From: Methylophaga sp.
Lineage (GTDB): Bacteria; Pseudomonadota; Gammaproteobacteria; Nitrosococcales; Methylophagaceae
Length of the DNA: 64,000 bases
Direction of reading: 5' to 3'
NCBI GenBank assembly: GCA_002733505.1
Contig: NVVW01000008.1
Coordinates: forward strand, 1-64,000
Part shown: positions 4,517 to 42,904 of the stretch, piece after piece
Layout of the letters: the number at the start of each line of letters is the position of its first letter
Position numbering within the stretch: the stretch's first letter is position 1
Translations under genes and position numbers: made by a program
The notes under the pieces: generated by a model
What the model was told of the DNA's origin: nothing
The model's input: the letters and a program-made list of their open reading frames with translations, nothing else
Database searches by the model: none

Positions 4517-5176
4517 ATGCGCTTAGCGATCGGCTTATTATTGGCATTAATGGTGAATTTTGGCTTATTTGCTGTGATGCACAATATGACTTCAGCAAAG
4601 AATATTGAACGTATTGTGACAACGGATATTCAACTATTAGATTTTGTGCGGCTAAAACGTGAAGAGCGGCTTGAAACAAAAAAACGAGAGCTTCCTAAAA
4701 AACCGCCGCCGCCTAAGAAACCACCGCCACCACCAAAAGCACCTGCACCACAGGCAACAAAACCTAAAACGCCACCGACACCTCAGTTGGATATAGCTAG
4801 AATTGATGTGCCTTTAAATATTGCGGGCGGTCCTTATCTGGGTGATTTTTCTGCTCAGCCTAAAGCGGTAGCACCTGCACCTGCTCCGGCTGCTCCGGTA
4901 ATGGATGGTGAAGTGATACCCTTAGTTAGAATTCCACCACGTTATCCGCGTAGTGCAGCACGTCGAGGGCTTGAAGGTGTTGTAACTATTTCGTTCATTA
5001 TTACTAAAACAGGAACGGTACGTGATCCTGTGGTAGTGAGATCTACACATAAAAACACCTTTGATAACGCAGCAATAAAAGCCATATTAAAATGGAAGTT
5101 CAGGCCGCAAATGGTAGATGGCAAGCCCGTTGAGCGGCAGGCGACACAAGAAATTGTCTTTAAGTTGGCTAAATAA
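4517..5176 (+). CDS. tonB: TonB family energy transducer
   Basis: This 219-residue protein has an N-terminal membrane anchor (about 1-22), a periplasm-spanning proline/lysine-rich linker (about 58-93, repeated KKPPPP units) and a C-terminal TonB domain (about 138-218) beginning IPPRYPRSAARRGLEG. TonB carries energy from ExbB/ExbD to TonB-dependent outer-membrane receptors. None of those receptors is encoded in this window. The short linker and gene order match TonB2-type proteins. Its stop shares a base with the next start (TAATG, 5174-5178). Confidence 0.93.
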   Translation: MRLAIGLLLALMVNFGLFAVMHNMTSAKNIERIVTTDIQLLDFVRLKREERLETKKRELPKKPPPPKKPPPPPKAPAPQATKPKTPPTPQLDIARIDVPLNIAGGPYLGDFSAQPKAVAPAPAPAAPVMDGEVIPLVRIPPRYPRSAARRGLEGVVTISFIITKTGTVRDPVVVRSTHKNTFDNAAIKAILKWKFRPQMVDGKPVERQATQEIVFKLAK

Positions 5177-14239: not shown

Positions 14240-15664
14240 GTGATATTGCACATGAATAAAGAAAAAACAGAACTTATTTTCTCTCTAGGCGAGCTTGAAT
14301 ACAGTGCCACAGGTGAATGGATGGATTATTCGCAATATGGTTTTGACCAAGATGATGCGACCGATTTAATAGCCCTAGCAATAGATAAAAAATTACATTT
14401 TGCAGATGACGACGATATGTGGGTGCCAGCCCATGCGTGGCGAATATTAGGGCAATTGGCGAGCGAAGAGGCGGTATTACCATTAATTGACATATTTGAT
14501 TTAATTACTGAGCAAGATGATGATTTTGGTATGACGGATTTGGTGCATGTGATGGCGATGATTGGCATGCCAGCAATTGTGCCTTTAGCTTCATTTATGA
14601 ATGATAAAAAACATGATCAGTTTGCCAGAATAATGGCGATAGAAAGCTTGAGCGAGATTGTAAAAAGATTTCCTGATAGTCGTCGACTACAAGTATTGAA
14701 AATATACCAGAATTATATGGCGAAGCCTGAGATTGAATTGCCGATATTGAATGGCTTGCTAATTTCCTATGTGCTGGAGATTGATGGCAAGGAACTGCTT
14801 GAAGATATTCGTACACTTTTCAAGCAAGAATGTGTTGATTTAAGTGTGGTGGGTGATATGGAAGATGTTGAAATTATATTGGGCTTGCGTACTGAGCGAG
14901 AAACACCAAAACCGACTTTTGAAGAAATGCATGGTATATCAGCTGAAATGATGGAAGGCATAACGCCAGAAAAGATTATAGAGCTATTTTCAGATAAAGA
15001 GCCGATTAAACCCACAGATAAAAATGATGTGCTTGCATGGTTGGATTATTATTTTATGCTGTATGGAAATAATGAGTCTATCCTTGATGCTTCTGAATTG
15101 GATGGCTTTTGTGCTTCACTTGCCTGTTCGCCTGAAATGATTCTGCCTTCAACGTGGAACCCTGCAATTTGGGGTGGTGAAGAATTGATGCCCGAATGGG
15201 AGACCATAAACGAGGCCACAAACTTTAGTGAGTTTCTATTTACTGTTTATAATCATGCCATAACGCAGTTAAATGACGGTAAATATGAACCTTTGTTTTG
15301 GTTGGATGAAGTTGATGATGAAACGTATAGCATTGCCGATGAATGGTGTAGTGGTTTTTTAAGAGGGGTTGATTTATGGGGGAGTCTCTCTGCAACAGAT
15401 ACTATGGTGGTGGAAAAAGCATTAGAGCCCATTCGATTGTTTGCAGCGGCGCGCGGTTTTAAGCAATTAGATAATATGAGTAATAATGAGGTTAAAATAC
15501 GTCAAGATTTAATCGAACCTTCAATAAAAAAATTATTTGATTATTTCCTAGAAAAACGTAAAGAACTAGTTGCCCCTATTGTACGCCGTGAAGCTAAAAC
15601 AAGTCGGAACGAGCCCTGTCCATGTGGCAGCGGTAAAAAATATAAGAAGTGCTGTTTGCATTAA
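14240..15664 (+). CDS. HEAT-like/YecA-type protein with C-terminal SEC-C zinc motif
   Basis: This protein of about 474 residues is acidic. The N-terminal half (about 1-240) looks like DUF1186-type helical repeats, the middle (about 255-425) resembles the UPF0149/YecA fold (ELDGFCASLACSPEMILPS), and the C-terminus is a SEC-C metal motif, EPCPCGSGKKYKKCC. SEC-C tails of this kind bind zinc and often contact the ribosome or SecB. The function of this combination is unknown. It lies between parE and parC, 3 bases after parE. The start could be GTG 14240 or ATG 14252, and neither has a strong ribosome-binding site. Confidence 0.75.
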   Translation: MILHMNKEKTELIFSLGELEYSATGEWMDYSQYGFDQDDATDLIALAIDKKLHFADDDDMWVPAHAWRILGQLASEEAVLPLIDIFDLITEQDDDFGMTDLVHVMAMIGMPAIVPLASFMNDKKHDQFARIMAIESLSEIVKRFPDSRRLQVLKIYQNYMAKPEIELPILNGLLISYVLEIDGKELLEDIRTLFKQECVDLSVVGDMEDVEIILGLRTERETPKPTFEEMHGISAEMMEGITPEKIIELFSDKEPIKPTDKNDVLAWLDYYFMLYGNNESILDASELDGFCASLACSPEMILPSTWNPAIWGGEELMPEWETINEATNFSEFLFTVYNHAITQLNDGKYEPLFWLDEVDDETYSIADEWCSGFLRGVDLWGSLSATDTMVVEKALEPIRLFAAARGFKQLDNMSNNEVKIRQDLIEPSIKKLFDYFLEKRKELVAPIVRREAKTSRNEPCPCGSGKKYKKCCLH

Positions 15665-28413: not shown

Positions 28414-29171
28414 TGATGAGAATATTATTACTGTCATTGCTATTATTATTGACGGCTTGTGGTGGTAGTCAAGCCATTGCTCCTGTCGATAGCCAAGGTT
28501 ATCGATCCAAAGCACCGCAAGCTAAACAGACACCAGCAAAACCACCCACAGTCTATAAAGTTAAAAAAGGCGATACGCTTTACTCAATCAGTTGGCGTTA
28601 TGGCATGGATTATAAAACCCTAGCCAAATACAATAATATTCGCTCGCCCTATAGATTAGCCATCGGGCAGAAATTACGTTTCAAATCCATTAAAACAGCG
28701 ACCAAGCCAACGACAAAGCCTAGTACAGCAAAACCAACACGCCCGACCAGCAAGCCAAAACCAACAAAACCGGCAGTCGTAAAACCAACGGCCAATACCA
28801 AACTGACTTGGCAATGGCCAACCAGAGGCAAAATTATTTCAACGTATTCAAAGAGTGCCGCAGGTAGAAAAGGTATTGATATCGCAGGCAAGGCAGGTCA
28901 AACGGTTGTAGCCGCCGCAGCAGGTAAAGTGGTTTATGCTGGCAATGGATTGCCTCGATATGGAAATCTACTCATTGTAAAACACAACGATGTGTATCTA
29001 AGTGCTTACGCCCATAATACCAAGCTAGTGGTGAAAGAAGGTGACTATGTTAAAGCAGGTCAAAAAATCGCCAGACTAGGCAGTACCGGCACCCAAAGAA
29101 ATCAACTGCATTTTGAAATAAGGCGTAATGGAAAACCGGTTGATCCGATGCAATTTTTACCTAAGCGATAA
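28413..29171 (+). CDS. nlpD: NlpD-like LysM / M23 murein hydrolase activator lipoprotein
   Basis: This 252-residue outer-membrane lipoprotein has lipobox LLTAC (Cys16), a LysM domain (about 47-89, YKVKKGDTLYSISWRYG), a threonine/lysine/proline-rich linker (about 92-128), and a LytM/M23 domain (about 131-250). The first zinc-ligand histidine is replaced (RKGIDIAG), as in NlpD, so it should activate an amidase such as AmiC rather than cut murein itself. The start overlaps the end of yqaA. Unlike most gammaproteobacteria, rpoS does not follow. Confidence 0.92.
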   Translation: MMRILLLSLLLLLTACGGSQAIAPVDSQGYRSKAPQAKQTPAKPPTVYKVKKGDTLYSISWRYGMDYKTLAKYNNIRSPYRLAIGQKLRFKSIKTATKPTTKPSTAKPTRPTSKPKPTKPAVVKPTANTKLTWQWPTRGKIISTYSKSAAGRKGIDIAGKAGQTVVAAAAGKVVYAGNGLPRYGNLLIVKHNDVYLSAYAHNTKLVVKEGDYVKAGQKIARLGSTGTQRNQLHFEIRRNGKPVDPMQFLPKR

Positions 29172-29188
29172 TTAAGGAGAAAAATAAT

Positions 29189-29266
29189 ATGGATAGACCT
29201 AAGTCATATTTTTTTGGTTTCATACTTTGCTTATTTTCTTATGGAAGTCTGTCATTATCGCGATAA
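29189..29266 (+). CDS. 25-codon ORF with strong ribosome-binding site after nlpD (possible gene remnant)
   Basis: A short frame begins at ATG 29189, 9 bases after AAGGAG, and encodes a basic start, a hydrophobic core (YFFGFILCLFSYGSLSLS) and then TAA. It looks like a signal peptide or single membrane helix. It could be a genuine small membrane peptide, or the leftover beginning of an exported protein whose body was lost when hicAB arrived. The stop lies inside the perfect palindrome at 29251-29270. Too short to judge by similarity. Confidence 0.3.
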   Translation: MDRPKSYFFGFILCLFSYGSLSLSR

Positions 29267-29270
29267 TGAC
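29251..29270. promoter_or_regulatory. Perfect 20-bp palindrome upstream of hicAB
   Basis: GTCATTATCGCGATAATGAC is exactly its own reverse complement. Its half (GATAATGA) recurs at 29285-29292 within the putative hicA promoter. A dyad of this kind upstream of a toxin-antitoxin operon is a good candidate operator for the HicB ribbon-helix-helix dimer, although this is inference from position and symmetry. Confidence 0.5.
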
Positions 29271-29282
29271 GAAGAACTATAT

Positions 29283-29312
29283 TTGATAATGATACTGAAA
29301 AGTAGTATCATT
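29283..29312 (+). promoter_or_regulatory. hicAB promoter with overlapping operator dyad
   Basis: TTGATA (29283-29288), a 17-base spacer and TATCAT (29306-29311) form a near-consensus sigma-70 promoter. Its spacer and -10 are covered by the inverted repeat AATGATACT (29288-29296) / AGTATCATT (29304-29312). A repressor bound here would block RNA polymerase. Transcription would begin about 10 bases before the hicA ATG, so the leader is very short. Confidence 0.55.
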
Positions 29313-29934: not shown

Positions 29935-31030
29935 TTGGAATTAGGTGCAACAATGCAGCGGATCAAAGAACTTCGGGGTCGTAGTGATGATCTTAGGGGG
30001 TATCTTTGACTATGATATTAAGGCTGAACAATTAGTAGAGGTTACACGTGAATTAGAATCGTCAACAGTATGGGACGATCCTGAGCATGCTCAACTGCTC
30101 GGTAAAGAACGGGTTAGTTTAGAGCGTATTGTCACGACTTTATCCAACCATAGTGAAACTTTAGATGATGCTAAAGAGCTGCTTGAAATGGCTGTTGAAG
30201 AACAAGATCAAGAAACCTTTGATGCCGTTCAAACTGATTTAGAAGAATTAGAAATAGCATTAGAGAAGCTTGAGTTTCAACGGATGTTTTCTGGCAAGAT
30301 GGATGCGAACAATGCCTATCTTGACATTCAATCTGGTTCGGGTGGAACTGAGGCGCAAGATTGGGCTAATATGGTATTGCGTATGTATTTACGCTGGGGT
30401 GAGGCGCAAGGTTTTAAGGTCGATTTAGTCGAAGCATCATCGGGTGAAGTTGCTGGTATTAAAAGCGCAACGATTCATTTTGAAGGTGACTATGCCTTTG
30501 GTTTATTGCGTACTGAAACGGGCGTGCATCGTTTGGTGCGCAAATCGCCATTTGATTCTAATTCAAAACGCCACACCTCATTTTGCAGTGTGTTTGTGTA
30601 TCCTGAAGTGAATAATGATATTGATATTGAGATCAATAAAGCAGACTTACGTGTTGATACCTATCGCGCCAGTGGTGCCGGTGGCCAGCATATCAATAAA
30701 ACAGATTCTGCGGTGCGTATCACCCATTTACCTACCAATACAGTTGTACAATGCCAATCACAACGATCTCAACATAAAAATAGAGATACCGCGATGAGTT
30801 TGTTGAAAGCGAAGCTGTATGAGTTAGAATTACTGAAACAAAATGAAGAAAAGCAATTAGCTGAAGATGGTAAAGCGGATATTGGTTGGGGCAGTCAAAT
30901 TCGTTCTTATGTTTTAGATCAATCACGAATCAAAGATTTGCGCACCAATGTGGAAACGGGTAATACTCAAGCGGTGTTGGATGGCGATTTACACTTATTT
31001 ATAGAAGCATCCCTAAAGTCGGGCTTATAA
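29935..31030 (+). CDS. prfB: Peptide chain release factor 2, with programmed +1 frameshift
   Basis: RF2 recognises UGA and UAA. A first segment of 24 codons (from TTG 29935) ends at an in-frame TGA (30007-30009). Ribosomes must shift +1 at CTT-TGA to continue in the frame that runs to 31030, giving about 364 residues. The shift site AGGGGGTATCTTTGAC is the classic one, with its internal Shine-Dalgarno stimulator. The GGQ peptidyl-hydrolysis motif is visible (GAGGQHIN). AAGAGGA lies 7 bases before the TTG start; ATG 29953 is an alternative. lysS follows 11 bases later, as in Escherichia coli. Confidence 0.93.
29995..30010 (+). promoter_or_regulatory. RF2 programmed +1 frameshift site
   Basis: AGGGGGTATCTTTGAC contains the internal Shine-Dalgarno (AGGGGG), the slippery CTT codon (30004-30006) and the UGA stop (30007-30009) followed by C, which weakens termination. 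Low RF2 levels favour the shift, so RF2 regulates its own synthesis. The arrangement is identical to that known from enterobacteria. Confidence 0.95.
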
Positions 31031-41665: not shown

Positions 41666-42904
41666 TCAGTTCGGTAAGAATAACTCAACTAAAGTGTTGA
41701 GGTAACGGTGTCCTTTTTCTGTTGGGCATATTTTGTGAATATCGTGCGTGATTAACCCTTGTTGTTCTGCTTGCTGTAGCGCTTTATTAATATGTGAGAT
41801 TGGTAAGCCTGCATGTTGATAAAACAGTGAAGTAGGGAAGCCATCCGTTAGTCTTAATGCGTTCAGCATAAATTCAAAACCGAGATCAGTTTCGGCAATC
41901 ATTTCTTGCGTTAAGATTATATCGGCTGTGCCAGCAGTATCAAGATAGCGTTGCGGTTGTTTTTGTTTTGAACGGCGGGTGATGCTTTGTTTGGCTGCAT
42001 CGCTTATTTTGCCGTGCGCACCTGCACCAATACCAAGGTAATCACCAAAATGCCAATAGTTTAGATTGTGCCGGCAAGCATAAAAGGGGACGCTACCCTT
42101 TAATTCTTCTCTAGGAGTTGAGCCAATCGGCTGCTTACCAATTAAAGGGTAGCGTCCCCTTTTAGAGTAGGCTGATACTTCATATTGCTGATAACCCGCT
42201 TTGGCTAGACGTTGTTGATTGGCTATTTGCCAGTCGATAATGGGATCTTCATCGGGCAAGGTAGGTGGTTGTTGGTAAAATAAGGTATTGGGTTCAAGTG
42301 TTAGTTGATAATAAGATATATGGCTCGGCTCAAGTGCTATTGCGGTTGCTACATCATTACCAGCTGTTTTTTCTGTTTGATGAGGCAATCCAAACATGAG
42401 ATCTAAATTAAAGTTTTCAAAGCCGACTTTGTGGGCTGTTTCTATCGCCTTTATCGCTTGTTTACTATCGTGAATTCGTCCTAATGCGGTGAGTGATTGA
42501 TCATTAAAACTCTGTACACCAATCGATAAACGGTTAATGCCTAGATCTAAATAATCAGCAAAACGTTGTGCTTCAAAGGTTCCCGGATTGGCTTCCAATG
42601 TTATTTCCAGCTGCGAGCTTAATGGTAATAAAGCGCGTATTGAAGAAAACAGTCGCTCGTAAGCTTCAGCTGAAAGCAGGCTGGGTGTGCCGCCGCCAAT
42701 AAAGATAGTTTGAACGGTACGCCCCCAAATGAAGGGTAATTCTTGCTCTAAATCTCGAATAAGCGCATCTATATAGGCTTGTTCAGGAATGTCTTTAGGT
42801 GAACGATGCGAGTTAAAATCACAGTAAGGACATTTTTTGACACACCAAGGTACATGAATATATAAGCTCAGCGGCGGCAGTGCTTTGAAGTCAAGCATTG
42901 CCAT
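41666..42904 (-). CDS. hemW: HemW-like radical SAM haem chaperone with an in-frame palindromic insertion
   Basis: This 412-residue protein is a coproporphyrinogen oxidase-like radical SAM protein. The 4Fe-4S motif is C21, C25, C28 in CVKKCPYC, with glycine-rich FIGGGTPSLL next. HemW binds haem and delivers it to respiratory enzymes; it is often misnamed HemN. Residues about 248-275 are extra compared with the family, where YEVSAYSK would lead almost directly into CRHNLNYWHFGDYLG. This segment is encoded by the perfect inverted repeat at 42081-42164. The frame is kept, so the protein is probably still functional. Start ATG 42904, with ATG 42898 next. Confidence 0.9.
   Translation of the reverse strand: MAMLDFKALPPLSLYIHVPWCVKKCPYCDFNSHRSPKDIPEQAYIDALIRDLEQELPFIWGRTVQTIFIGGGTPSLLSAEAYERLFSSIRALLPLSSQLEITLEANPGTFEAQRFADYLDLGINRLSIGVQSFNDQSLTALGRIHDSKQAIKAIETAHKVGFENFNLDLMFGLPHQTEKTAGNDVATAIALEPSHISYYQLTLEPNTLFYQQPPTLPDEDPIIDWQIANQQRLAKAGYQQYEVSAYSKRGRYPLIGKQPIGSTPREELKGSVPFYACRHNLNYWHFGDYLGIGAGAHGKISDAAKQSITRRSKQKQPQRYLDTAGTADIILTQEMIAETDLGFEFMLNALRLTDGFPTSLFYQHAGLPISHINKALQQAEQQGLITHDIHKICPTEKGHRYLNTLVELFLPN
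42081..42164. repeat. Perfect 25-bp inverted repeat (84-bp element) inserted within hemW
   Basis: Arms 42081-42105 and 42140-42164 are exact reverse complements (GGGGACGCTACCCTTTAATT in the left arm), around a 34-base loop. The total length of 84 bp is 28 codons, so the hemW frame is kept. The AGGGTAGCGTCCCC core recalls palindromes found beside REP-associated Y1 transposases, but no such transposase is in the window. The arms show no mismatch, so the insertion is recent or under constraint. Confidence 0.85.

Follow-up and report, generated by a model that had tools for sequence, protein, structure and literature searches.

The hemW gene (positions 41666-42904, minus strand) of a Methylophaga sp. 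lies in the window, the 64,000-nucleotide stretch of DNA analysed here, and encodes a radical SAM heme chaperone of 412 aa. Its identity is supported by a profile search (TIGR00539, 368 bits against a cutoff of 205), with which the Pfam domains agree. The gene is single-copy in the genome, the other match (C20:3319) being about 30% identical. In E. coli, hemW is dispensable. Inside the Methylophaga gene lies an 84-bp palindrome (42081..42164, minus strand), a hairpin-forming, REPIN-like doublet of inverted REP units. Its arms, 42081..42105 (minus strand, downstream in the hemW sense) and 42140..42164 (plus strand, upstream in that sense), were found by a repeat search to be complementary at 25 of 25 nucleotides and are separated by a 34-nt loop (42106..42139, minus strand). 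An earlier note's description of a perfect 25-bp inverted repeat inserted in frame is thus confirmed, as is its remark that the frame has no stop: hemW is one open ORF of 412 codons with no frameshift. By our own arithmetic (about 64000 x 100 x 4^-25, or roughly 1e-8 per window) the chance occurrence of such a palindrome is negligible, and as DNA it folds much more stably than shuffled sequence (z -8.7). The one Rfam match, to a plastid hairpin and below threshold (29 bits against 53), was taken as chance.

Is the palindrome an ancestral part of the gene? The insert is absent from all 51 other aligned HemW proteins, which come from the same genus, the family and beyond (the genome's neighbours being Methylophaga-like Gammaproteobacteria; one row, L061, is shifted by one). 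In place of the 28 residues found here (249-276, RGRYPLIGKQPIGSTPREELKGSVPFYA, the doublet plus its edges), relatives have SAYAK-xxxx-CQHNxNYW or a similar sequence with four variable linker residues. The possibility raised earlier, that close relatives carry the same 28 residues without the palindrome, is therefore not borne out in the alignment. The extra residues are real, but the net gain is 24 residues or 72 bp and not the 28 residues or 84 bp first supposed, which implies that some 8-12 host bases were replaced or are shared with the ends of the element. Comparison with the empty sites gave no evidence of a target duplication. Since the relatives compared include no closely related strain with an empty site, the exact ends and the timing of the insertion are approximate; if the common ends AAAGGGG...CCCCTTT are taken as limits, the element is 80 bp long.

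The 84-bp element can be read in six frames, of which a single one is free of stops, and this is the frame used in hemW. In a simulation with random loops, 3.4% of doublets were both open and a multiple of three in length. The alignment indicates that the invariant HemW residues are all retained and that none falls within the insert. An AlphaFold model built with 52 sequences (pLDDT 90.8, pTM 0.89) has a single segment below 50, residues 253-272, and the insert comes out in the model as a disordered loop that lies outside the HemW fold and leaves it intact. The predicted loop lies between strand 245-249 and helix 278-284, the helix that carries HNLNYW, which places the insert directly ahead of HNXXYW, a motif that has been linked to the binding of heme by HemW (PMC10320005, PMC11834973). 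The solved structure matching the protein is that of HemN (1olt).

The earlier note had asked whether the arms occur elsewhere in the genome and had linked them to REP-associated Y1 transposases; both expectations held. The arm core AAAGGGTAGCGTCCCCTTT (42083-42101 and 42144-42162) is present in 12 copies in the 2.37-Mb genome (G000), a low number, 11 of them exact, against none for a reversed-pattern control, and two of the 12 are inverted around a Y1/RAYT transposase gene. A unit taken singly is also an imperfect palindrome (AATTAAAGGG-GACGCTA-CCCTTTAATT), and a GTAG sequence lies internally in the repeat (GGGTAGCGTCCCC), inside AAAGGGTAGCGTCCCCTTT and within the stem-loop. The hemW copy is the only short inverted doublet in the genome, other close pairs being direct, and among the genus copies examined it alone is inside a conserved coding sequence, the others being intergenic or at ORF ends. 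A match of the repeat pattern in a thiolase gene (G011) was judged to be a chance one in a conserved motif. The loop is unique to hemW: its central 26 bases have no other match in 29 genus genomes at up to three mismatches, on which ground a fragment of another genus locus was rejected as its source. Of 369 genomes sampled evenly across the class, only the one analysed here has the exact doublet. None was found in phage contigs, and a plasmid origin was discarded for want of a match.

Inspection of the other copies gave several side observations. Most of them (contigs C3, C4, C16, C20 and C32; L131-L136) adjoin toxin-antitoxin-like genes (YoeB-like, ParE, PIN/Phd, HigBA), named by eye except for ParE. 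On C16 a 164-bp segment (29131-29296, L133) repeats, at 93% identity, the promoter region of rpe together with about 29 of its initial codons; a REP unit and a parDE-like toxin-antitoxin pair adjoin it, the intact rpe comes next, at 29964, and the segment has the appearance of a captured cassette bearing a second copy of the gene start. A second type of palindromic repeat, GGGGTCAGACTC..., which fits the TIR motif GGGGWSAS, occurs in L005 (near 1380-1420) and L133 (near 4810-4840).

The transposase gene (C20:87942-88619), of the RAYT type of Y1 (HUH) transposases, has repeats at 87895 (minus) and 88611 (plus), 716 bp apart, and it ends within the repeat, which contains its final codons and stop (AAA GGG TAG). 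Its product matches PF01797 (56.7 bits) and has the motif NHLHLVL. It scores 66.6 bits with the NCBIfam REP_Tyr_transpos profile (NF047646; curated cutoff 80) as against 19.6 with IS200, so that, judged from sequence and at a score below the curated cutoff, it resembles REP-associated tyrosine transposases more than IS200 ones. A search for solved structures of this RAYT found none. The end of contig C19 (L134) is identical to the 3' end of the gene, and the break in the assembly may there conceal a further copy of the RAYT. A RAYT between inverted repeats also occurs in G009, G014, G024 and G028, with core starts 707-716 bp apart, and G027 has a close RAYT copy that ends in its REP. Among 29 genus genomes, the present one counted, the repeat (0-1 mismatch) was found in six of the six that have a close RAYT (at least 65% identity over its length) and in four of the 23 others (Fisher p = 0.0004, in genomes that are related and in some cases incomplete).

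Inverted sibling doublets with other loops are present in four genomes: G009, G012, G016 and G027. In all of them the GGGGACG end faces outward, the same orientation as around the RAYT and in hemW. In G027, two RAYT elements are deleted inside but keep the RAYT start and both inverted REPs (C10:79558-79739 and 84183-84365; L173 and L174), with cores 163-164 bp apart; these are MITE-like derivatives of the RAYT element. In G012 the doublet separates the stop of parE from the start of parC, a site that is empty in G003 and others. Relative to G003 it adds a net 51 bp for a core element of 64 bp, so that here as in hemW the net gain is below the element size. As a separate observation, parE and parC are adjacent in many genus relatives, whereas in our window they are separated by an ORF of 474 aa (14240-15664) that has a SEC-C-like motif (NEPCPCGSGKKYKKCC) at its C-terminus.

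We conclude that the hemW palindrome is very probably a REP doublet (REPIN) of the genome's own RAYT that moved into the gene and has been tolerated as an in-frame loop. Counting against this reading are the internal GTAG, the RAYT score below the curated cutoff, the low copy number, the direct orientation of the genome's other close pairs and the draft state of the assembly. What is observed here is co-occurrence, which suggests mobilisation by the RAYT. The C20 enzyme would recognise the 19-25-nt repeat units of the doublet, which would most likely move as a hairpin of single-stranded DNA, with the RAYT cutting and joining this intermediate at the REP units. This single-stranded route is taken from the literature on RAYTs, which recognise folded single-stranded REP DNA in a strand-specific manner (PMC8266576). 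The doublet would then have inserted without target duplication, replacing some 8-12 bp of the variable linker. Its survival would be explained by a length that preserves the frame, by insertion in the single open frame of the six, and by the nature of the 24 additional residues, which are predicted to make up a disordered loop at the surface, flanked by a strand and by the helix that begins at HNXXYW, and so to leave the fold intact. To judge from the sequence, the inserted segment is probably translated and HemW presumably retains its function.

The chief alternative is a silencing insertion, in which the stem and following UUUU act in the mRNA as an intrinsic terminator or ribosome block, so that hemW is knocked down and becoming a pseudogene. 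In its favour, the 25-bp stem is strong as RNA (-47.2 kcal/mol, z -7.4 against shuffled sequence), GCGUCCCC-UUUU stands at the 3' side of the stem, and one unit by itself gives a terminator-like score on the other strand. But the frame is kept across 412 codons and no invariant residue has been lost; in RNA that is being translated, hairpins like this are normally kept from forming by the moving ribosomes; and a terminator scan in the hemW sense did not flag the doublet, although its loop limit of 8 excludes an element of this kind. We accordingly regard silencing as unlikely. It is more doubtful still that the hairpin in hemW mRNA, or the loop near HNXXYW, alters HemW output or heme handling and has been selected in this lineage.

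Could a repeat from elsewhere have been joined into hemW in assembly or binning? The assembly is a draft of 43 contigs, and some repeat copies are near contig ends (C4, C19). The insert, however, is flanked on either side by hemW sequence in the interior of an 87-kb contig, the frame is kept and is the single open one, and the loop is unique in the genome, making an artefact highly improbable. The likeness to Rickettsia palindromic elements that had been pointed out holds as an analogy: elements such as RPE-1, -4 and -6 are also palindromic and translated in frame in housekeeping genes, though in another lineage. Membership of such a family, specialised in spread as translated inserts, does not follow, and we give it even less credence than an artefact, since the repeat is tied to a RAYT and the hemW doublet is the only one inside a conserved coding sequence among the genus copies examined. 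By their published descriptions, with which the comparison was made, RPE-4 and -6 are CGTC repeats without transposase association. A purely local origin, for instance by template switching, would suit the unique loop but can practically be dismissed, for the arm matches exactly a dispersed repeat found on both sides of a transposase gene in several genomes.

The reading as a REPIN agrees with what is known of these elements. Like the REPINs of Pseudomonas fluorescens SBW25 (Bertels and Rainey 2011, PMC3116915), the doublet consists of inverted, genome-repeated units around a variable spacer, can form one hairpin, and has a unit that flanks a RAYT; the copies examined are, moreover, mostly extragenic. 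The SBW25 elements differ in being extragenic and high in copy number, whereas ours is a low-copy, coding element with another repeat sequence. Similar in setting are the GTAG/CGTC REP dimers which, in the passages compared of Di Nocera et al. (2013, PMC3733652), lie inside ORFs, many of them housekeeping genes, and encode 20-30 residues in many species. Those passages also describe REPs that supply stop codons to neighbouring ORFs, a feature shared here. The main text of that paper makes no mention of Methylophaga, nor do the passages compared mention hemW. The terminal GTAG that marks GTAG-type REPs there (TnpAREP groups 2 and 3) is absent from the hemW repeat, where GTAG is internal; on sequence grounds the repeat is not a classical GTAG REP. 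As in the REPtrons and TIRtrons outlined in the parts compared of PMC3733652 and PMC8266576, a Y1 gene lies between inverted repeats and overlaps one at its 3' end. Unlike the repeats described there, GGGGACGC is one base off the TIR motif and lacks a terminal GTAG, which places it between two described classes. A literature search did not find this repeat sequence described (one unrelated paper matched), nor are Methylophagaceae treated in the portions compared of PMC3116915, PMC3733652 and PMC8266576.

Intragenic REP dimers encoding 20-30 residues are thus already published, and the hemW doublet is a further case, with a repeat not found described. It is a clean one, in which a REPIN has very probably become coding sequence and which comes with a likely transposase, with sibling elements and with relatives whose site is empty. 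With one open frame of six it illustrates how the reading frame acts as a filter, and it brings to light, in the Methylophagaceae, a repeat intermediate between the described REP and TIR classes.
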